Positions 4,923-14,516 of a stretch of DNA of 21,866 bases are shown here, piece after piece. Where the stretch lies: the IMG/VR virus record IMGVR_UViG_3300014886_000074, positions 1 to 21,866 of that record. The stretch is one strand, 5' to 3'. The notes under the pieces are model-generated. The model saw nothing but the letters and a program-made list of their open reading frames with translations. It was not told the DNA's origin and ran no database searches. A program made the translations under genes and the position numbers. Each line of letters begins with the position of its first letter. Within the stretch, counting starts at the first letter, position 1. This stretch comes from a virus.

Positions 4923-6326
4923 ATGAGAACCTTCAACGATATTCTCGGTGATGATGACCTGTTAGAGTTTACCTTGCAGGCTCGGGTCGATTTTGGGTTT
5001 TTCGCCCGGAGAGTTCTCGGCCTCAATATTAAGTGGTTTCACGAGGAGTGGGTGAAGCTCTTCCTCGAAAATGAGAGAACCCTGATCTATGCTCCTCGCG
5101 GGTTCGGCAAGTCCACGATTCTCGGCGTTGCATTTCCTTTGTGGATGTCGTGCTTTAATAAGAATCTCGACTTTCTCATCGTCTCGAACGTTTATTCCCA
5201 AGCGACGGACATAATCACGAAAATCAGGAACTACATCGAATCCAACGAATATCTCTACCATCTCAAGCCGGAGTTCGCGTCAAAAGTTTGGAGAAGAACA
5301 GAGCTTCAAACCACCACCGGATGCAACATCGTCAGCAGACCGTATTCTCCCAACGTCAGGGGAAGACACTTCAACTACTGCATCCTCGACGAGGCCTCTC
5401 TCGATCGCTACGCCAGAGACAAGTCGATTTACTACTCCGCGATAGCTCCAACCGTGATTAGGAGGAGAGGACACATCGTGCTCATCGGAACTCCGAGATC
5501 CAAGCTCGACCTGATGGAAGAACTGAAGAAGCATCCGGATTACGTTGTCAAGACCTATCCCGCGATTCGCAACGGAAAGGCGCTCTGGCCCGAAGTTTTC
5601 GGAAGGAAATACCTGATGGAAAAGAAAAGAGAGCTCGGCGAAATCCCGTTCAACAAGGAATATCTTTTGAACTTGATTGCCGATCAGATTTACCTTTTCC
5701 CGCCTTCCTTGATCGAACCCGCTTTCCGCGACGACAAGATTATGACCATCTTCAAGGATGATGAGAAGCGCTATCAATACTTTATGGGCCTTGACTTCGC
5801 CCTTTCCGCTTCGCCAAGAGGAGATTACTCGGTTTTCGTGGTTCTCAAGAAAGACAGGGAAACCGGAATGATGGAACTCCAGTATCTCGCGAGATACAAG
5901 GGAATGGACTACAAGATTCAGGAGCAGAAAGTGAAAGAGCTTGCCAAGAATTTCAAGCCGGTCAAGATTCTTGCAGACGAATCCACTTTCGGCAGAATCG
6001 TTACCCAAGATTTGAAAGAAATGGGTTTGCCGGTTGAGGGATACTCGTTTCACGACGCTCAGGCGGAATACCTAATGACCCTGCGCTCCGCCTTCGAAAG
6101 AAACCAATTGATCATTCCGGCGAGCTACAAGGAGCCATACACGAAAAGAAAGGCCGACATTCTATTCAGAGAACTGACTTCAATGTCGCCGGTTGAGTCT
6201 CCGAGGACCGGGAGAGTCACCTACAAGAACGTGAGCGGACACGACGACACGGTCATAGCACTCGCATTAGCGGTCAAAGCCGCTACGGAGCAGAAGACTT
6301 TCCTTCCAATCGTGGGGATGGCCTGA
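4923..6326 (+). CDS. terL: Terminase large subunit (DNA packaging ATPase and nuclease)
   Basis: This 467-residue motor protein pumps viral DNA into the prohead through the portal and cuts the concatemer. The ATPase domain shows a Walker A loop APRGFGKST (57-65), Walker B YCILDEA with D156 and E157, and the coupling motif GTPRS (189-193). The RNase H-like nuclease domain shows its acidic residues at D291 (MGLDFALS), D352 (ILADES) and D441-D442 (SGHDDT). Length and order are those of a complete enzyme. The start is set by the leaderless promoter. No separate small terminase subunit is seen next to it; the small coiled-coil gene directly across the divergent promoter (4650-4832) or another small gene might fill that role, which is speculation. 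Confidence 0.95.
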   Translation: MRTFNDILGDDDLLEFTLQARVDFGFFARRVLGLNIKWFHEEWVKLFLENERTLIYAPRGFGKSTILGVAFPLWMSCFNKNLDFLIVSNVYSQATDIITKIRNYIESNEYLYHLKPEFASKVWRRTELQTTTGCNIVSRPYSPNVRGRHFNYCILDEASLDRYARDKSIYYSAIAPTVIRRRGHIVLIGTPRSKLDLMEELKKHPDYVVKTYPAIRNGKALWPEVFGRKYLMEKKRELGEIPFNKEYLLNLIADQIYLFPPSLIEPAFRDDKIMTIFKDDEKRYQYFMGLDFALSASPRGDYSVFVVLKKDRETGMMELQYLARYKGMDYKIQEQKVKELAKNFKPVKILADESTFGRIVTQDLKEMGLPVEGYSFHDAQAEYLMTLRSAFERNQLIIPASYKEPYTKRKADILFRELTSMSPVESPRTGRVTYKNVSGHDDTVIALALAVKAATEQKTFLPIVGMA

Positions 6327-6650: not shown

Positions 6651-7841
6651 ATGATAGACGAAATATTCGGGATGAAAAGAACGGAAGCGAAGCTGAGCAA
6701 GGAAGAGTTGCCTCTCGGTCAGGTGGGAACCGAGTCGTTCCCGGAAACTTTGGAGCGGGTGGACAAGAAAGAGCTCGAGGCATGCTACATCCGCGATCCC
6801 ATCGTGTTCAACGGCATCAATCTTATTCTTAAAACTTTTCTCGGAACTGGATTCGAAATTCACGCGGTTAGCGGCAGAGTGAAGCAGTACATTGAGCAGC
6901 TCAGGCAGAATACCGACCTCGAGCAACTCATGCTCGAGATTATCCGCGACATTTGCATTTACGGCGATGCGTGGGTCGAGCTGCTTTACAGTGGGAACAG
7001 AATCACCGGCTTGAGAATCATCAACGCCAAGTCGATGGATTTCGAGAAAGATATCAACGGAAAGGTGAAGCTTGACAAATACGGGAGACCGATCGGATAC
7101 TTCCAGAAGGTCAGTTCCGCCTCGATGAACAGGAAGCTCGACATTGACGATCAGGGCAACCTCGGAATCCGAATTCCGCTGGAGAAGGTCGCGCACTTCA
7201 AGTTGTATTCGGTTAGCGGCTCTCTTTACGGAATCGGCTTGATCGAGCCTATTTACAACATAGTCAAGACGAAGCTCAACGTTGAGGAAGGTCACGGTCA
7301 AGCTTCTTACAGGCTCGGATATCCTTTGCCCGTCCTAACTTGCGGTGACGAGAACCATCAGCCCACCGCTCAGGATTTGAACCAGCTCGCCGAAGCTATG
7401 AAAGACCTGACCGCGAAGTCGATAATCACCCTGCCGTATTGGAACAAGCTCGAAATTTCCTATCCGAAGGGAATGGAAAAGATTTCTCAACCTCTTAATT
7501 ATTACGTCTCTCAAATCGTTTCCGGCCTTGGAGTCCCGGGTCCTTTGGTTCTGGGCTCCGGAGAGAGGACGAATCGTTCGACTCTCCAGATGCAAATCCG
7601 CGTTTTCAAGGATACGATCAGAATGATACAGGAAGTGATAGCGGATGCGTTCAGGACGGAAATCTTCAAGAGAATCGCGAAGATTGAGGGATGGAACGAG
7701 CTTCCCACGATCAAGTGGAAAGAGCTTAGTTTAGAAGACCTCCAGGCGAAAGCAGAAAGATTCAACATCTACGTCAAGTCAGGAATTCTCAAGCCGAGCG
7801 AGTTGGCGGAGAGCGTGAAAGAGCTGGAGGGCTTGAAATGA
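6651..7841 (+). CDS. Portal protein
   Basis: The 396-residue product sits directly after the terminase block. Portals form the dodecameric ring at one capsid vertex through which DNA enters and leaves. Support comes from the gene order and from portal-like features: an N-terminal segment with PIVFNGINLILKTFLG, a conserved-looking core IIRDICIYGDAWVELLYSGN (about 96-115), then INAKSMDFEKD, and the region VPGPLVLGSGERTNRSTLQM (about 298-317), which resembles the portal segment before the long stem helix (MQIRVFKDTIRMIQEVIADA). It is somewhat shorter than many portals but intact. The ATG is the first one after the preceding stop. Its TGA overlaps the next ATG as ATGA. Confidence 0.88.
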   Translation: MIDEIFGMKRTEAKLSKEELPLGQVGTESFPETLERVDKKELEACYIRDPIVFNGINLILKTFLGTGFEIHAVSGRVKQYIEQLRQNTDLEQLMLEIIRDICIYGDAWVELLYSGNRITGLRIINAKSMDFEKDINGKVKLDKYGRPIGYFQKVSSASMNRKLDIDDQGNLGIRIPLEKVAHFKLYSVSGSLYGIGLIEPIYNIVKTKLNVEEGHGQASYRLGYPLPVLTCGDENHQPTAQDLNQLAEAMKDLTAKSIITLPYWNKLEISYPKGMEKISQPLNYYVSQIVSGLGVPGPLVLGSGERTNRSTLQMQIRVFKDTIRMIQEVIADAFRTEIFKRIAKIEGWNELPTIKWKELSLEDLQAKAERFNIYVKSGILKPSELAESVKELEGLK

Positions 7842-10800
7842 ATACGGTTGATCTCGAGCTGTTCAATTATCTCGGTTCGAAAAAGCGCCAAGTGGATTCG
7901 ATAATGAGCGAAATCCCGAAGACAGCCAAAACTATTTTCGACCCGATGTGCGGTTCCAGCGCCGTGCTGTATGAGTGCAAGAAACGCGGTATGCACATAA
8001 TTGCGAACGACATTTCTCCGATGGCGTATTACTATTCCAAGGCGATTCTCGGCCAGACCAAATTCTCCAAAGAAGATGCGGAGAAATTGCTCTCCGCGAG
8101 ACCTGTCAAGGGGTATCTTTACCACGCGAAAACAATCGCGGGCAGGCCAAAGAGCAGGATCCTAAGGCAGGTAATAGACGGAATTTGCACTTACGCGCAT
8201 CAACTTCCTCCCGGCAAGAAGGAATTCGCTCTGGGAGCTATGGCAGATTGCCTTTCATCGCTTTTCGGGAGCTTCGGATTCTTCAGGAAAGCTCCAGAAG
8301 AGCAAGGACTTTACACGGTCTCGAAGTTCAAGAAGAAGCTCTTGAGAAGCATCATATCCTTGAATTCCAAAGTCATTCCCCAAGGAAGCGCGGCCGTGAC
8401 GAGAAAGGACGCGTTCACGATACCGATTCCGAAGGTGGACATCATTTACTTCGACCCGCCCTACGACATTTCAGGCACTTCAGAAGTTCCTTACGCCAAG
8501 CATTATGCCCTCCTCAATTCCATCCTGATGCAAAGGGAAGTGAACCTTCCGCCGTTCCCGAGGGAGAGAATCCCGGAATTGATTAAGCGGTTCGCGAATA
8601 AGTGCAAGATTCTGCTCGTTTCCTCTTCCAGCCAGCCGAACCTGAAATACAGGCAGATTCTGAAAGAGCATTTCGGAAACACCCGCCTCAAGAGAATCAC
8701 CTTCAAGTCTTCCGGTGGAATCCCGCAGGGAGCAGCGGTTCCAATGCGAATCCAAACCGACTATCTCTGGATCGCCGAGAACAAGTCCGAGAAGTTAGCC
8801 GAGAGGCAGGGATTGAGGCTTCCCGGTTCTCACGCCAAGTGGATCTGGACTGATCGGCAAACGGCAATTGTCCTCCCGGAAAGTTATAGACATCTCGCGG
8901 ATAAAAGCATGTATCTTGTCGACAGCAGCCATTGCTACGGCGTCATTCACTTGAAAGAGCCGTTCTCGATTACCAAAGACGAATTAATCGATCGCTTCAA
9001 CGAGCACTTGCTATCTCCTCTTGAATGCGAAGAATTGTTCGGGAATGCCAAGAAATTTTTATATTTCCCGTTTGTTTGGGTTGAGAAATTTCCGGAAAGA
9101 CGGCCGATTTCCCAAGAAGGGAAGGATTTAATAGCCGACAGAATCGAGTTCCTGGCAGAGGAATACGGGAAGCCGCAACACTCCGGAGAAGAGCAAGGTT
9201 CTCCGATTCACCTGAAGGAAGTCGTCGATAGTCTCAAGACCTTCAAAATCAAGAGGCCATACATCTGCTTGGTGGGAGGTCTCGCCACTTGGGGCAGAAC
9301 GAAGAACGACATCGACATCCTGATTAGAAAGAAGAAACCCAAGGATGAAAACGAGGACATTCCACTCAAGTTCAGGATTATCAGGCAGCTTCCCAAGCAC
9401 CTGTGGAAGAGAGTTCACTTCATTTACGACGATCACTTTCACGGCCCTTTCACCGACTTCGTCCCGCTTTACGATTTAGTCTTGGAGAAGCAGCCGTTCA
9501 AAATTGAGCGGATGTCTGAGAAAGGCGACGAGATTTCGTCCCTGATAAGCAACCTGCCCGAAATTTCAAAGGAAGAGCTCATAAAGCGTCATGAGAGAAT
9601 TCATGAAATTTGGAAGGAAGGAAAGGCGGATAAAGACGATGTAATAGATGCCCATGCCTTCATTTGGAGGGAAATGCGAAGAAGGGCAATCGAGCATCCG
9701 AAGAAGGATGACGGCCTCGACGAAGCATCCAGATTCCCGGTCATTGAATATCCCACGCCCGAATTGAAGGAACTCGAAGTCCCGAAGCATCTGAAACCCC
9801 GACAGGGATTCGAGGAGTTTGAATTCTCCGATCCCGCGACGCTGTGGAAAAACTGGTATCTAAAGCGGGCAAAAGGCGAGAAAGTTTACGTCGAGCCGAA
9901 ATGGGACGGCTTCACTTTCGGAGTCAAGAAGGACGGGAAAGAAGTTCAGCTAATCACGGAAGATAGAAGAAGGGATCGCTCGAGCATTCTCCCGCAGATA
10001 GTTGAGGACGTGAGAGCGCTTCCCGTCAAGCAGTGCGTCTTTTTCGGAGAAATGGTCTGGTTCAAGGACGGAAAGGCCAGAGAGCGCGAGGAAGCAATGG
10101 GCATCATAGCCGGCAAGGAACCTCTGGCGGATGAAGACATAAGATTTTTCGCATTCGACATCACGAACTTCGACGGCAAGGACATCTCGAATCTTCCCTA
10201 TTACGAGCGCGTGAAGTATCTTGACAGACTTCTCAGGGCGGATACAAGGCACATCATGAAGACTCCGAGAGTTCTCGTCTCCGACTACGATAATTTCGTG
10301 AAGGCCTTCAAGAAGTTCTCTGAGATTGAAGGATCCGAAGGTGTCATGGTTAAGAAGCAAGATTTCATCTACGAGAAAGATGGAAGAACTTCGAACATGG
10401 CGAAAATTAAGAAATCATACGACATTGAAGTTCAGGTCGCCAAGCGGGTGCCTAAAATTTCAAGCGCAACGGGCAAACCCATTCCCGGACAGTATCTTTA
10501 CGAAATCCAAACCAAAGACGATAAAGGAAGAATTGTCCCGATGGGCAGGACATTTTCCACAAGCATCAAGGCGAGTCCCGGAGATATTCTGACCGTCAGG
10601 ACAGCGAGAATAAGAGGATTCTGGGATCCCGAAGCGAAGAAAATGGTTAGAATTTCGCTGATGTGGCCGAAGGTTTTGGGCAAGGCGAAGCGCATGACTC
10701 CTTGGAAAGAGCTGAAGAAGATAATGTGGGTTCCGAAAGAAGAGGAACTTGCTGAAAAGCGTAGGTTTGTATATCAGGAGCATGCGAGAGGGAAATCCGT

Positions 10801-11527
10801 GCATGGGGACTTGCGATTCGAAATGAACGATCATCTCGAGGGATGGACGCTCGATGACATGGTCAAGGACGAGGTGAAAAAGCCGATTCTGACGCTGGAC
10901 GACTTGAGGAAAGAAGTGGCCGATCCGAACAACTGGAAAATTGATTGGGAAACAGGCGAAACCATCAAGCTTCCATCAGGAGAACCGATGAAGATTCTCG
11001 TTCAAAGCAAGGCAAGGCAGCCGAAAGTTTGGCTCACTCTGGAAGGCATCGTTCCTCCGGGAAAGCCCGGTGCCACCAAAAATTATCCGGGCGTCTTCAT
11101 CATCCGAGATAAAGGGACTTTTGAAGAAGGAACGAGGAAGCCGTATCTTTACGAGTATTTCCTTCACGGGAAGCACCTGAAAGGAAGATACATCATCAGG
11201 AAACTCGAAACAGGAGGACTGAAACCAAGAGGAGAAAGGGAGAAATTCAAAGTTCCGTTCGTTTGGTTTTTCTGGAAGCCGAAAGACCAAACACCTTACA
11301 TTTTGACGAAGAGAGCTCTCAAAACAGGCACGAAACCTCCACCGGGCAAGTCGTGGCTTCCCGAAGAGTGGGAGAAAAAATTGCCGAAGGAAATGAGATT
11401 CTGGGTCGGAGGATACAACAAGGAAGCCCATGAGAAAGCGGTTGAATTCGCAACCGAGTATAAGAAAGAAAAATCCCTCGAAGAGGATTTCCTTTATGAC
11501 AAGAAGTCTTTCCTGCTTAAAATTTGA
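7838..11527 (+). CDS. Multidomain DNA enzyme: D12 adenine methyltransferase, nucleotidyltransferase-like domain, ATP-dependent DNA ligase, 3'-phosphoesterase
   Basis: One unbroken 1229-residue frame. Residues 1-315: D12-class N6-adenine methyltransferase with YLGSK (11-15), DPMCGS (35-40), NDIS (57-60) and catalytic DPPY (206-209). Residues about 320-440: unassigned domain (YGVIHLKEPF, KKFLYFPFVWVEKF), perhaps ASCH/PUA-like. Residues 455-570: nucleotidyltransferase-like, with GG (480-481) and D491-x-D493 and possible third Asp D540 or D546. Residues about 655-960: ATP-dependent DNA ligase with lysine motif K688-W-D-G, FFGE (735-738), FAFD (771-774), EGVMVK (834-839), MAKIKK (854-859) and an OB-like tail. 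Residues about 965-1125: LigD-type 3'-phosphoesterase with H982 and H989-G-D991-L-R993. The family's later HP pair aligns with Q1061-P1062, so activity may be altered. Together it could methylate viral DNA and clean and seal its ends; its place in the head operon suggests action at packaging or inside the particle. Translational coupling to the portal is by ATGA. Confidence 0.88.
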   Translation: MNTVDLELFNYLGSKKRQVDSIMSEIPKTAKTIFDPMCGSSAVLYECKKRGMHIIANDISPMAYYYSKAILGQTKFSKEDAEKLLSARPVKGYLYHAKTIAGRPKSRILRQVIDGICTYAHQLPPGKKEFALGAMADCLSSLFGSFGFFRKAPEEQGLYTVSKFKKKLLRSIISLNSKVIPQGSAAVTRKDAFTIPIPKVDIIYFDPPYDISGTSEVPYAKHYALLNSILMQREVNLPPFPRERIPELIKRFANKCKILLVSSSSQPNLKYRQILKEHFGNTRLKRITFKSSGGIPQGAAVPMRIQTDYLWIAENKSEKLAERQGLRLPGSHAKWIWTDRQTAIVLPESYRHLADKSMYLVDSSHCYGVIHLKEPFSITKDELIDRFNEHLLSPLECEELFGNAKKFLYFPFVWVEKFPERRPISQEGKDLIADRIEFLAEEYGKPQHSGEEQGSPIHLKEVVDSLKTFKIKRPYICLVGGLATWGRTKNDIDILIRKKKPKDENEDIPLKFRIIRQLPKHLWKRVHFIYDDHFHGPFTDFVPLYDLVLEKQPFKIERMSEKGDEISSLISNLPEISKEELIKRHERIHEIWKEGKADKDDVIDAHAFIWREMRRRAIEHPKKDDGLDEASRFPVIEYPTPELKELEVPKHLKPRQGFEEFEFSDPATLWKNWYLKRAKGEKVYVEPKWDGFTFGVKKDGKEVQLITEDRRRDRSSILPQIVEDVRALPVKQCVFFGEMVWFKDGKAREREEAMGIIAGKEPLADEDIRFFAFDITNFDGKDISNLPYYERVKYLDRLLRADTRHIMKTPRVLVSDYDNFVKAFKKFSEIEGSEGVMVKKQDFIYEKDGRTSNMAKIKKSYDIEVQVAKRVPKISSATGKPIPGQYLYEIQTKDDKGRIVPMGRTFSTSIKASPGDILTVRTARIRGFWDPEAKKMVRISLMWPKVLGKAKRMTPWKELKKIMWVPKEEELAEKRRFVYQEHARGKSVHGDLRFEMNDHLEGWTLDDMVKDEVKKPILTLDDLRKEVADPNNWKIDWETGETIKLPSGEPMKILVQSKARQPKVWLTLEGIVPPGKPGATKNYPGVFIIRDKGTFEEGTRKPYLYEYFLHGKHLKGRYIIRKLETGGLKPRGEREKFKVPFVWFFWKPKDQTPYILTKRALKTGTKPPPGKSWLPEEWEKKLPKEMRFWVGGYNKEAHEKAVEFATEYKKEKSLEEDFLYDKKSFLLKI

Positions 11528-11536
11528 GGTGATGAT

Positions 11537-11731
11537 ATGGAAGATTTATACCCAAAAGTTAAGGAGAAGAAAGAAATTGAAGTGATTGAGGAAGAACTGC
11601 CTTGTCCCGGAAGCAAGATTCGTTCGAGAGGAGAAGGAAGAGGACAAGGATTCGGAAAAGGAAAAGGACCCCTGGGAGTTCCGATCAAGCGGAAGAAGAA
11701 GATGAAATGGAATACTTGGGAGGAAATCTGA
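11537..11731 (+). CDS. Unknown 64-residue basic protein
   Basis: The product begins MEDLYPKVKEKKEIEVIEEE and is acidic at first, then Gly/Arg/Lys-rich (RGEGRGQGFGKGKG), ending KMKWNTWEEI. The unstructured basic middle suggests nucleic-acid or protein binding. The ATG has GAGGTGATG directly upstream in the nine-base gap after the large enzyme. It is followed two bases later by the second phosphoesterase gene, for which its end supplies the ribosome site. No family is recognised. Confidence 0.65.
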   Translation: MEDLYPKVKEKKEIEVIEEELPCPGSKIRSRGEGRGQGFGKGKGPLGVPIKRKKKMKWNTWEEI

Positions 11732-11733
11732 AA

Positions 11734-12366
11734 ATGCCTGCACACAAATTTTACTTGAATCGGCACTGGTGGCGAGGGCAATTCGTTATTAGAGGCCAGC
11801 CTGTCGAGCATTTCGACCTCCGGATTGACGAGGGAAAATTGAAGAACCGCTATTGGGTGCTTGATAAAGACCCGACTTACGTTAAGAAAGGAATCGTGGC
11901 GGTTCAGAAAATCTGCGACGACAGGAGATGGCTCACATTTACCGGCAGGATTCCGCCCAATCCGAAGGCGCCGAAGTGGCTCAAGCCGGGCAATCCGAAC
12001 AAGCGAATCCCGGCGTTCGTTGAGAGAATCGATTCGGGAATCGTCAACTTCATAGAAGATTCTCCGAGGTTTATTTCCATGATTTTTAAGGGCGATCGAT
12101 TGCGGGGTTACTGGGTGATGAAAAAGCCGAATCCGGGAGAGTCCATCTGGATTTTCGAGAAGTCGGAGTTACCGAAAGCGAAGAAGCTTCTCGACATGCT
12201 AAACTCCGTTAGAAGAAGGGGCAGCCCGATTCAGATTACGCAACAGCAGTTGGACACGATTATCAAGATGTCGGAAGCGGGAGCAAGCAGGCCTCAAATT
12301 ATGAGAGCAACGAACTTGTCGAAGAGTTGCGTATATCACTACCAGCGTCTTCTCGGTTTCGTATAG
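11734..12366 (+). CDS. Phosphoesterase-like (LigD PE) domain fused to C-terminal helix-turn-helix
   Basis: The start ATG 11734 is chosen because GGGAGG lies about ten bases upstream; a longer frame from 11602 only overlaps the previous gene. Residues 1-145 look like a LigD 3'-phosphoesterase domain: H26-F-D28-L-R30 followed by DEGKLKNRYWVL matches the family's H-x-D-x-R-x-E...L-x-x-W pattern, and ISMIFKGDRLRGYWVMKK (114-131) matches the strand pair near the domain end, also seen in the large enzyme as EYFLHGKHLKGRYIIRKL. A first histidine may be H4 or H11. Residues about 170-208 form a helix-turn-helix (MSEAGASRPQIMRATNLSKS). This could be a DNA-guided end-cleaning enzyme or a sensor with a dead domain. 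It ends just before the protease promoter. Confidence 0.7.
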   Translation: MPAHKFYLNRHWWRGQFVIRGQPVEHFDLRIDEGKLKNRYWVLDKDPTYVKKGIVAVQKICDDRRWLTFTGRIPPNPKAPKWLKPGNPNKRIPAFVERIDSGIVNFIEDSPRFISMIFKGDRLRGYWVMKKPNPGESIWIFEKSELPKAKKLLDMLNSVRRRGSPIQITQQQLDTIIKMSEAGASRPQIMRATNLSKSCVYHYQRLLGFV

Positions 12367-12399: not shown

Positions 12400-13500
12400 A
12401 TGAGATTTGACGATCTAATTATTCAGGAATTAGACGCCAAAGAGCAATACGATTTAAATAATCTGAAACTTCCGGTCGTTCTCAAGAACAAAATTTTGAT
12501 GTCTCCGGGAATGTGGAACGGATACTATTACGATGCGGATGCAATCCGGGAGGCATTTGAAAATACGGACTGGACATCGAAAGCCGTCAGGTCTCTTTTC
12601 ATGGATCACAAGGACAACGAGACATCCGATTGGGTAGGCTTCATTTCAAATCCCAGATTCGACGGAAAGAATATCAGAGCCGACCTTGAAATAGTTGACG
12701 AGAACATGGCTCGCAAGTTGCTTTTCGGAGCAAGATTCGGGATTTCGCCGAGATTGGTTGGTCAGGAAGACAACAAGGTAATGAAGCATTTCACCTTCGA
12801 GAACTTTTCGATTGTCGTGAATCCTGCGGTGAAAACCGCTTTCATCAATAATGCTCAAAACGAGGAGGGTTTAGATATGGAGGAAGCCAAAGATTTAGAA
12901 GAGCAAATAAGTCTCGAGGAAAGAATGGAGAGACTGGAGACAGCTCTCGCAGAGATTTCAGAGCTTCTGAAGAAAAAGAAGAAAGAGCCAGAAGAGGAAG
13001 AGCTCAAGAAGAAAAAGAAAGAGCCAGAGGAAGAAGAACTCAAGAAAAAGAAAAAGAAATATCCATACCCGTATCCATACGACAAACTCTTCGACATCCT
13101 CGAACTCGACGACTTCACCTTCGAGGAAGAAGGGAGCGAGATTCTTGAAGAGTTCGTGGAGTTGAAGAAAAAGGGCGGTAAAGTTGCAAGGATAGCAAGG
13201 AAGGCGAAAGAAATCAGGAAGAAAGGAGAATCTTGGAAATCAGCAATTAAGAGAGCAGCAAAGATGCTCGCGGAGGAGGAAGGAGAAACAGCGGAAGAAG
13301 AGAAGAAAGAGGAGCCTCAAGAGAAAGTCGAGGAAGCTTCGGAGAAGAAAGAAGTAGTTCAGGAGATGCAGGAAACAAACCCTGGCCTCGCCTTACCTGT
13401 CGACGGCGCGCAAGTAGCCGACGAACAAGTTAGCGAAGAAGACAGGCTGCTAAAAATGGACGAGGCAGTCTTTAAAATCCTAAAGGAGGGTGGATTATGA
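12400..13500 (+). CDS. Prohead maturation protease fused to scaffold
   Basis: The 366-residue product joins a protease (about 1-150) to a scaffold. The protease part has MDHKDNETSDWVG (H70) and FGARFGISPRLVG (S116), the His and Ser pattern of XkdF-like/HK97-type prohead proteases, in the expected order and spacing. From about 155 the protein becomes charged and helical: an N-terminal coiled coil (LEERMERLETALAEISELL), a Lys/Glu repeat, a YPYPYPY hinge (221-227), and Glu/Lys-rich helices to the end, as in scaffolds that direct capsid assembly and are then digested. A strong internal ribosome site before M160 suggests the scaffold is also made alone. The TGA overlaps the capsid ATG as ATGA. Confidence 0.85.
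   Translation: MRFDDLIIQELDAKEQYDLNNLKLPVVLKNKILMSPGMWNGYYYDADAIREAFENTDWTSKAVRSLFMDHKDNETSDWVGFISNPRFDGKNIRADLEIVDENMARKLLFGARFGISPRLVGQEDNKVMKHFTFENFSIVVNPAVKTAFINNAQNEEGLDMEEAKDLEEQISLEERMERLETALAEISELLKKKKKEPEEEELKKKKKEPEEEELKKKKKKYPYPYPYDKLFDILELDDFTFEEEGSEILEEFVELKKKGGKVARIARKAKEIRKKGESWKSAIKRAAKMLAEEEGETAEEEKKEEPQEKVEEASEKKEVVQEMQETNPGLALPVDGAQVADEQVSEEDRLLKMDEAVFKILKEGGL
12877..13500 (+). CDS. Nested scaffold protein from an internal start
   Basis: Inside the protease-scaffold gene, GAGGAGGG (12862-12869) lies seven bases before an in-frame ATG at 12877, which begins MEEAKDLEEQISLEERMERL. Translation from here would yield a 207-residue scaffold without the protease. Known capsid systems such as lambda C/Nu3 make extra scaffold in this way, which solves the need for many scaffolds per protease. 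The site falls exactly at the boundary between the protease domain and the charged helical part. Protein evidence is lacking. Confidence 0.55.
   Translation: MEEAKDLEEQISLEERMERLETALAEISELLKKKKKEPEEEELKKKKKEPEEEELKKKKKKYPYPYPYDKLFDILELDDFTFEEEGSEILEEFVELKKKGGKVARIARKAKEIRKKGESWKSAIKRAAKMLAEEEGETAEEEKKEEPQEKVEEASEKKEVVQEMQETNPGLALPVDGAQVADEQVSEEDRLLKMDEAVFKILKEGGL
12967..13059 (+). repeat. In-frame 36-base tandem repeat encoding LKKKKKEPEEEE
   Basis: Two near-identical 36-base units (12967-13002, 13003-13038) and a partial third (13039-13059) encode alternating Lys and Glu blocks in the scaffold (residues 190-220). The units differ by silent A/G changes. Such repeats can gain or lose copies by slippage; here they form a flexible charged linker or salt-bridged helix before the YPYPYPY segment. 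Confidence 0.7.
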
Positions 13501-14516
13501 CAAAAACAATAACTCAGTTGCTCGCAGACACAACTTCCAGCCATAATACGGATCTCCAAGCCAAGCAATGGCTAAAAGCGATAATCGATACTGCTCAAAA
13601 GGAAATGCACTTCCTGCAGGTTGCTCAGCAATTCACACTGCAGCCCGGCTGGAAGGATCTTGCGGTTCCAATTAGAAGCGACTTCATCAGCTCATGGCAA
13701 TCCTCTGCCTCGGAAGGTGCCGCAGTCAACTACACGACAATGGACACCTTGTCCACAATTACCTTCACGCCTTCCGATGCGAACTACGGGATTGCAATAA
13801 GCAACAGAGCATTAAGAATCTCCAACATCAACCTGATAACGGCTGCCAGAGACGAGCTCACTTACAGATACAAAGACGTGATAGATCAGGCAATCCAAGC
13901 AGCTATTCTCGGCGCTACGGATGCCGACTCGGATACCAAGGGAGCTCAATCATTGGCAGGTGGTGACGCATCAGGGTATGGAGACACAACAACCGATGTT
14001 GAAGCCGGCGACATCATAACCACAGACATGGTGGCAAGGGCAAGAAGGATGCTAATGTCCACCAGCTGCTACTATTGGAGCGGCGGGTCTATGTCGAAAT
14101 CTTCGGCAAGCAAAGCTCCTTGGGTGCCAACTCCAGCCGAGCCGTTCGTGCTCATAATTGCACCCGAGCAGCAAGAAGCATTCCTCAAAGATCCGCAGTT
14201 CATAAACGCAGCTGAATACGGAGCAAGAGAACCCATCTTGAACGGTGAGATAGGCAGCTATCTCGGCGTGAAGATAGTCGTTTCCAACAACTTGCCAGCG
14301 AAATCTTCATCCGACAGCGGATGGAATACAAACGGTCACGTCTGCTTTATGGTCAAGGCGAAGAGATGTGCAGGAATTGCATGGGGACAGAAACCAAGAA
14401 TCCAAATAGTCGATTATCCATCAGAGCTTGAGAAAAGAATAATCCTCGAGATGGCCTACCAAGCAAAAGCACTTCATGCAGATGCAATCGTGAAGCTGAA
14501 AGTCGCAGATGCTTAA
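13497..14516 (+). CDS. Major capsid protein, HK97 fold (N4 gp56-like)
   Basis: The 339-residue product directly follows the protease-scaffold, the universal position for the shell protein. Its sequence has the features of the N4 gp56-type capsid family: an N-terminal helix region, the phrase FVLIIAPEQQEAFLKDPQFI (217-236), then AEYGAREPILNGEIGSYLGV (239-258), KIVVSNNLP (259-267) and a late CFMVKAKRCAGIAWGQKP (283-300). A Gly/Ser/Asp-rich stretch at about 140-172 may be a surface loop. The ATG overlaps the previous TGA, with AAGGAGGGTGG upstream, a strong site that suits high expression. It is followed by a structured gap. Confidence 0.9.
   Translation: MTKTITQLLADTTSSHNTDLQAKQWLKAIIDTAQKEMHFLQVAQQFTLQPGWKDLAVPIRSDFISSWQSSASEGAAVNYTTMDTLSTITFTPSDANYGIAISNRALRISNINLITAARDELTYRYKDVIDQAIQAAILGATDADSDTKGAQSLAGGDASGYGDTTTDVEAGDIITTDMVARARRMLMSTSCYYWSGGSMSKSSASKAPWVPTPAEPFVLIIAPEQQEAFLKDPQFINAAEYGAREPILNGEIGSYLGVKIVVSNNLPAKSSSDSGWNTNGHVCFMVKAKRCAGIAWGQKPRIQIVDYPSELEKRIILEMAYQAKALHADAIVKLKVADA

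Follow-up and report, generated by a model that had tools for sequence, protein, structure and literature searches.

The virus contig IMGVR_UViG_3300014886_000074, taken over positions 1-21,866 (this whole 21,866-nucleotide stretch is called the window and supplies all coordinates given without a locus name), encodes within its head operon a 1229-residue protein, the poly-enzyme, in which predicted DNA methyltransferase (MTase), ASCH, nucleotidyltransferase (NTase), ATP-dependent DNA ligase and LigD-type phosphoesterase (PE) domains follow one another. We judge the chances to be about even (a probability near 0.5) that the poly-enzyme is virion cargo, a DNA protection and repair kit that is delivered at entry. 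A virion-linked role in the wider sense is the best reading, because the location of such enzymes among head genes and their fusions to protease or portal domains recur in many divergent viruses. A first-pass annotation of the sequence had suggested a role of this kind in healing or closing genome ends; the virion link is supported as a reading, whereas genome ends are one of several substrates that would fit.

Recurrence among head genes and fusion to the maturation protease

The poly-enzyme frame (7838-11527) starts with ATG, has no internal stop codon and shares four nucleotides (ATGA, 7838-7841) with the stop of the portal gene, so that both the uninterrupted frame and the coupling described in the first-pass annotation are present in the sequence. 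The portal gene lies upstream of it, and the prohead protease and capsid genes lie downstream. Relatives were gathered by sequence and not by place from IMG/VR, GTDB contigs and ANMV-1, together with a second contig of the metagenome-assembled genome (MAG) that holds the window and another MAG from its phylum. The resulting 115 loci were reduced to 92 by clustering at 90% identity of the first phosphoesterase domain (PE1), or of the ligase if there was no PE1; locus counts are approximate, being drawn from self-built, iterated profiles; Pfam and PHROG gave concordant results for the subsets checked. The toolkit is present in 92 non-redundant loci, mostly near portal or terminase genes, where the annotation had proposed to look for it, and the fusion to a methyltransferase and the head-operon location that it pointed out are borne out in the window and in relatives. 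Among loci with 1.5 kb or more of flanking sequence, a portal or terminase gene precedes the toolkit on the same strand in 71 of 81, and a protease or major capsid protein follows it or is fused to it in 80 of 85.

Of all the sequence evidence, the fusions to the maturation protease point most strongly to a head-linked role. In 29 of the 92 loci the enzyme frame also encodes a prohead-protease domain of the XkdF/S78 type, at its C-terminus or close to it, with up to ~1700 residues of enzymes ahead of this domain. XkdF (PF14550) is confirmed by Pfam in L023 (7.4e-14), L027 (4.3e-20) and L038 (1.3e-24), and the expected His and Ser are kept in an alignment of 18 of the fused proteases. An ASCH domain lies within the portal frame itself in L011 (500-2152) and L103. 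Unlike the enzyme-fused relatives, the two isolated phages inspected (RHph_Y1_11 and RcTiptonus) have a plain portal-protease-capsid order without enzymes, and their protease is a gene of ~210-225 codons right behind the portal gene; in the poly-enzyme loci the enzymes occupy this portal-protease gap. In tailed phages the maturation protease is shut inside the prohead and cleaves both its substrates and itself there, after which the fragments are either released from the head or retained in it. Enzymes fused to this protease would travel into the prohead with it and could there be cut free.

The usual domain order across the 92 loci is NTase-ligase-PE1, a conserved module and a second phosphoesterase-fold domain (PE2), and the MTase, ASCH (38/92) and metallo-beta-lactamase (17/92) domains are variable. 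The MTase comes first in the window and in L010, stands between ligase and PE1 in L006 and L008, and is present twice in L006 and L020; the enzymes are divided among at least two genes in L005, L018, L029-L031 and L046. The closest relative, L010, has a 1606-residue frame with MTase-ASCH-NTase-ligase-PE1 plus a metallo-beta-lactamase domain and the same 4-nucleotide portal overlap. Since L010 and many other loci share the architecture, we reject the possibility, raised at first pass, that the frame is an assembly joint of several genes. L010 was also the sole match in a search with the ligase subgroup; among ~50,700 phage records, ANMV-1 alone matched the multi-domain core with any of four query proteins, and a viral structure library gave a single match. 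MAG titles name among the hosts Archaeoglobales, another euryarchaeote, Dehalococcoidia and Planctomycetota, and the ANMV-1 host is archaeal, possibly ANME, according to its authors (PMC4372165). Judged from these sequences, the toolkit is common to viruses of archaea and bacteria.

Three of the relatives have features of their own. The PE2 gene of L010 (9983-11290) also encodes, at residues 230-431, another ligase-like segment (9e-47). In L027 (7265-11617) the NTase-ligase-PE protein has an N-terminal 2H phosphoesterase/2'-5' RNA ligase-like domain and a C-terminal XkdF protease. L009 (704-4576) is 87% identical to L006 (2396-7651) over 873 amino acids and is then joined in frame, in the middle of the MTase, to a prohead protease; this junction is either a deletion or an assembly error.

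Domains of the poly-enzyme

The domains and the evidence for each are as follows.

7853..8725, + strand: predicted D12 class N6-adenine DNA methyltransferase, residues 6-296 (PF02086, 2.5e-15)
8804..9142, + strand: ASCH domain, residues ~323-435 (AlphaFold2 model and structure comparison)
9182..9598, + strand: Pol-beta-like NTase, residues ~449-587 (family profile and conserved residues)
9788..10426, + strand: ATP-dependent DNA ligase adenylation domain, residues ~651-863 (PF01068, 2.8e-23, above the Pfam cut-off)
10427..10681, + strand: OB-like part of the ligase, residues ~864-948 (position and alignment)
10757..11212, + strand: PE1, LigD 3'-phosphoesterase fold, residues ~974-1125 (AlphaFold2 model and hhalign to LigD)
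11243..11407, + strand: conserved module after PE1, residues ~1136-1190 (PYxLS..A..PP..S.LP)

The residues quoted in the first-pass annotation (DPPY 206-209, GG..DID 480-493, K688-W-D-G, EGVMVK 834-839 and H989-G-D-L-R993) are all present. Its domain list holds for the D12 MTase and the ligase by Pfam, for the PE by fold and, by a weak profile match, for the NTase; the ASCH domain and the OB-like part of the ligase had been overlooked.

The family profile of the ligase matches archaeal DNA ligase at 3e-30 and LigD at 3e-16 in the PDB, where all 43 matches below 1e-5 are DNA ligases and no RNA ligase reaches that level; the Pfam RNA_ligase model gives 4e-5, below its cut-off. Motifs I (K688-W-D690-G691), III (E738), IV (E834-G835) and V (K856) are present, as is K839, and K688, D690, G691, E738, E834, G835 and K856 are near-invariant in 85 relatives wherever the column is present; the distal Arg of motif I does not share this near-invariance.

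PE1 is weakly recognised as a single sequence (PF13298, 0.02, below the cut-off). Its AlphaFold2 model (pLDDT 90) matches LigD phosphoesterases only, with VIA Z scores of 15.6 (3p43), 14.8 (3p4h), 12.9 (3n9b) and 12.3 (5dmp) within a range of 10.6-15.6, and the next chain scores 3.9. The model thus predicts a LigD-phosphoesterase fold, and with the PF01068 match of 2.8e-23 and the PE1 Z score of 15.6 both regions fall into the families to which the earlier annotation had assigned them. The Mn ligands and Arg of LigD (His42, His48, Asp50 and Arg52) correspond to H982, H989, D991 and R993, which are kept in 97-100 of 100 rows, and the module behind PE1 is kept in nearly all relatives. PE2, which the window encodes in a separate gene downstream, is connected by its family profile to the LigD phosphoesterase 3p43 (3.3e-11) and by profile-profile comparison to PE1 (1.9e-11).

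Among the remaining domains, the D12 region is a predicted N6-adenine DNA methyltransferase by family score (PF02086, 57.3 bits against a cut-off of 22) and by motifs placed by alignment, DPMCG 35-39 (the Gly-rich motif I) and DPPY 206-209. Residues ~323-435 are predicted to have the ASCH fold, since their model resembles 2dp9 (TTHA0113, Z 12.4), 5guq (ZmASCH, Z 11.3) and YqfB (Z 10.9). The best PDB matches of the NTase family profile are TdT/Pol beta at a weak E of 0.009, and Foldseek likewise matches the region to MNT/NTase chains at a weak E of 0.2, the VIA list of the model being filled by ASCH. The hG[GS]...[DE]h[DE] motif is present, with G480, D491 and D493 conserved in 80-81 of 81 relatives; the alignment fixes no third Asp as the third carboxylate.

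A proposed role as virion cargo, and alternatives

The proposed route of the poly-enzyme to the entering DNA has four steps. The protein would be made together with the portal and the maturation protease and enter the prohead interior, an entry that the in-frame protease fusion would force in many relatives; the protease would separate the domains or trim the cargo; and the enzymes would leave the capsid together with the DNA. Once inside the cell, the D12 MTase would methylate adenines in the incoming genome as a guard against host restriction, and the NTase, ligase and PE would process and seal nicks, breaks or termini before new viral proteins exist, with the ASCH and PE2/helix-turn-helix domains helping to bind nucleic acid. 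Tailed viruses inject proteins, and the carried enzymes could act on DNA at packaging or, more usefully for the MTase and the repair set, at entry. We infer on this account that the poly-enzyme is present in the virion, is cleaved and ejected, has DNA as its substrate and serves protection or repair. The retention of catalytic residues of the ligase, NTase and PE1 across divergent relatives supports the cargo reading, and ANMV-1, in which the NTase-ligase-PE1-PE2 core adjoins the portal gene, came from a viral metagenome (PMC4372165).

Several observations weigh against this reading. The MTase is present in about 33 of 92 loci, or about a third, and covalent linkage of the domains appears dispensable, as they are separate genes in L005, L018 and L031. 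Ejection of such large proteins through the tail is an assumption, and neither a packaging signal nor a cleavage site was found. Ligase motif VI (RxDK) is degenerate in the window copy (GKAKRM), which weakens the self-adenylylation expected of it at first pass; an RxDK-like motif VI is aligned in 7 of 29 relatives. PE2 retains the PE fold and has lost the metal triad. In PE1 itself, His84 and Tyr88 of LigD, phosphate-site residues whose mutation inactivates the Pseudomonas LigD PE (PMC8656161), are replaced by Q1061 and W1065; among 100 relatives, 84 have E or Q at the first position and 6 have His, and all 100 have Trp at the second. Removal of 3'-phosphates by the LigD mechanism, the activity that the earlier annotation had in mind, is likewise weakened, and the reaction of PE1 cannot be deduced from LigD because these two residues are replaced. 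PE1 forms a PE subfamily of its own, in which a metal site is probable and the phosphate site is altered; with its E/Q and Trp, the active site adds a hitherto unstudied version of a DNA-repair enzyme.

Enzymes made alongside the portal and prohead might instead seal nicks and clean ends of replicated DNA in the producing cell during packaging, lest the terminase stall, and never reach the next host. Adjacency to the terminase and portal genes, the ASCH-portal fusions and expression with the late head genes are all compatible with such packaging-time repair, and in T4 a ligase and endonuclease VII aid packaging. Yet the protease fusions suggest the prohead interior rather than the outer face of the portal, and adenine methylation would be most useful on entry or throughout replication; we regard this explanation as unlikely.

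It is improbable, too, that the poly-enzyme is a late intracellular enzyme that hitchhikes in the head operon without a structural or injected role. Head operons do hold genes of other function, and split versions of the enzymes exist, but the recurring slot (71/81 and 80/85, in archaeal and bacterial viruses) and the protease fusions would be hard to explain.

The NTase, ligase and end-processing domains could also repair RNAs, such as tRNAs, that host RNase defences have cut. The 2H phosphoesterase/2'-5' RNA ligase-like domain of L027 (PF13563, 2.5e-8) points in this direction, as do the ASCH domain, a nucleic-acid or modified-nucleoside fold that includes the ac4C amidohydrolase YqfB, the metallo-beta-lactamase domain of some relatives, whose fold includes RNase Z, and the jumbo-phage NTases that work beside RNA ligases (PMC7824862). 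The ligase, however, is far closer to DNA ligases, both by Pfam score and by its 43 PDB matches, and D12 MTases act on DNA, which makes an RNA substrate quite doubtful. Genome circularisation by a viral counterpart of bacterial Ku-LigD non-homologous end joining is disfavoured and very improbable even though a LigD-type PE fold adjoins an ATP-dependent ligase and mycobacteriophages circularise by this pathway (Pitcher 2006, as cited in PMC7719229), since no Ku was found in 24 IMG/VR records (which may be fragments), ANMV-1 or the window's MAG, no LigD primase-polymerase domain is among the Pfam and NCBIfam matches of the poly-enzyme, the ligase scores 73.6 bits against a cut-off of 227.75 for NHEJ_ligase_lig, and the PE catalytic residues are altered.

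The cargo reading, by comparison, would make the module a widespread and apparently undescribed variant of virion-cargo enzymes, for whose link to the head the evidence is good, though indirect; the searchable literature, covered in part, gave no description of a ligase/PE module of this kind. We know of no set of DNA ligase and end-processing enzymes that forms part of a head and is linked to its maturation protease. More tentatively, the loci may represent a class of systems not described before, carried in the capsids of archaeal and bacterial viruses, that protect DNA and join its ends independently of Ku; the NTase, ligase and modified LigD-type domain would be placed in the prohead beside the maturation protease or fused to it, freed by it and injected to repair the viral genome, and the first-pass phrase "a new kind of viral DNA-end system" is a possible description of them. 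If this is confirmed, some viruses would bring their own repair kit, possibly directed at restriction or at defences that break DNA; injected multi-enzyme proteins would be extended to the viruses of archaea, in which they are considered rare; and the upkeep of entering linear genomes before gene expression would become testable.

Known systems, neighbouring genes and host

The polyvalent proteins (Iyer et al. 2017, PMC5512222; archetype DarB of P1), which that account proposes to be injected and cleaved and calls scarce in archaea, resemble the poly-enzyme in being large, in uniting unrelated enzyme domains that include DNA-adenine MTases and Pol-beta NTases, and in lying beside portal or terminase genes. 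Disparate enzymes beside portal genes fit the rationale given there for injected polyvalent proteins. The poly-enzyme differs in that its Pfam matches include no MuF, zincin peptidase, ArdC-N, SWI2/SNF2 or LPD domains (a 2H domain was seen in L027 only among scanned relatives), its MTase is of the D12 and not the EcoKI/TaqI-like type, and its cleavage would be by the prohead protease. Neither an ATP-dependent DNA ligase nor a LigD PE fold turned up in the same source; of its three mentions of a ligase, those shown are of RNA ligases.

With LigD and the stand-alone archaeal PEs (3p43, 3p4h, 5dmp) PE1 has in common the PE fold, the Mn-binding His-His-Asp and the Arg, and both LigD and the poly-enzyme join a PE to an ATP-dependent ligase core. 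Unlike LigD, the poly-enzyme has His84 and Tyr88 replaced, is accompanied by a second PE without a metal site, is fused to NTase, MTase and ASCH domains (in relatives also to a prohead protease), and has neither a primase-polymerase nor Ku among what was found. ANMV-1 AJP62006 (KP703175; 866 amino acids) has the order NTase-ligase-PE1-PE1tail-PE2 directly behind the portal gene, as in the poly-enzyme family; it lacks the MTase and ASCH of the window protein and is annotated solely as "ATP-dependent DNA ligase". Its neighbour AJP62005 (L004, 1913-3193) is annotated as a MutT-like phage hydrolase, yet matches portal proteins (phrog_146, 2e-30). Ligase, portal and capsid go unmentioned in the paper that describes ANMV-1 (PMC4372165).

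The head operon of the window reads as follows, with a small open reading frame (ORF) between the terminase large subunit and portal genes.

4923..6326, + strand: terminase large subunit, 467 amino acids (PF17289, 8.8e-8; phrog_38, 2e-55)
6651..7841, + strand: portal protein, 396 amino acids (PF06074, 1.4e-14; phrog_9232, 2.1e-19)
7838..11527, + strand: poly-enzyme, 1229 amino acids, a single frame ATGA-coupled to the portal gene
11537..11731, + strand: 64-amino acid ORF, basic and Gly-rich (CPGSKIRSRGEGRGQGFGKGKGPLGVP), between the poly-enzyme and PE2 genes
11734..12366, + strand: PE2 plus resolvase-type helix-turn-helix gene (PF02796, 5.8e-5, for the helix-turn-helix)
12400..13500, + strand: prohead maturation protease, 366 amino acids, probably with a scaffold part (phrog_3270, 0.0021)
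13497..14516, + strand: major capsid protein, 339 amino acids (PF25209, 3.6e-10; phrog_1357, 1.7e-17)

The 64-amino acid ORF is preceded by the ribosome-binding-like GAGGTGAT. The PE2 gene is listed with a TTG start at 11602; it probably starts at ATG 11734, which stands behind GGAGG and agrees with relative L010. The prohead protease family of the window occupies the same slot in L010, L011, L037 and L047.

The window contig was binned in a MAG that is taken to be archaeal from its TATA-binding protein gene, a search for an archaeal 16S gene having found no match, and it is this binning that suggests the link between virus and host. PE1 is rare in the window's own phylum (2 of 156 genomes), and the contig may therefore be that of a rare or a mis-binned virus. 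The same MAG holds a second, divergent copy (L059, G000:C33 3-3542; 1179 amino acids) of the order metallo-beta-lactamase-ASCH-NTase-ligase, with no PE domain found anywhere on its contig. The sole Ku in the searched genomes (L061, G180:C1 18859-19404; 7.6e-50) belongs to the Dehalococcoides JdFR-54 MAG that also holds L047. Outside the head operon, the minus strand of the window encodes at 800-1744 a protein that joins a winged helix-turn-helix to a metallophosphoesterase of the calcineurin-like type (PF00149, 2.5e-11).

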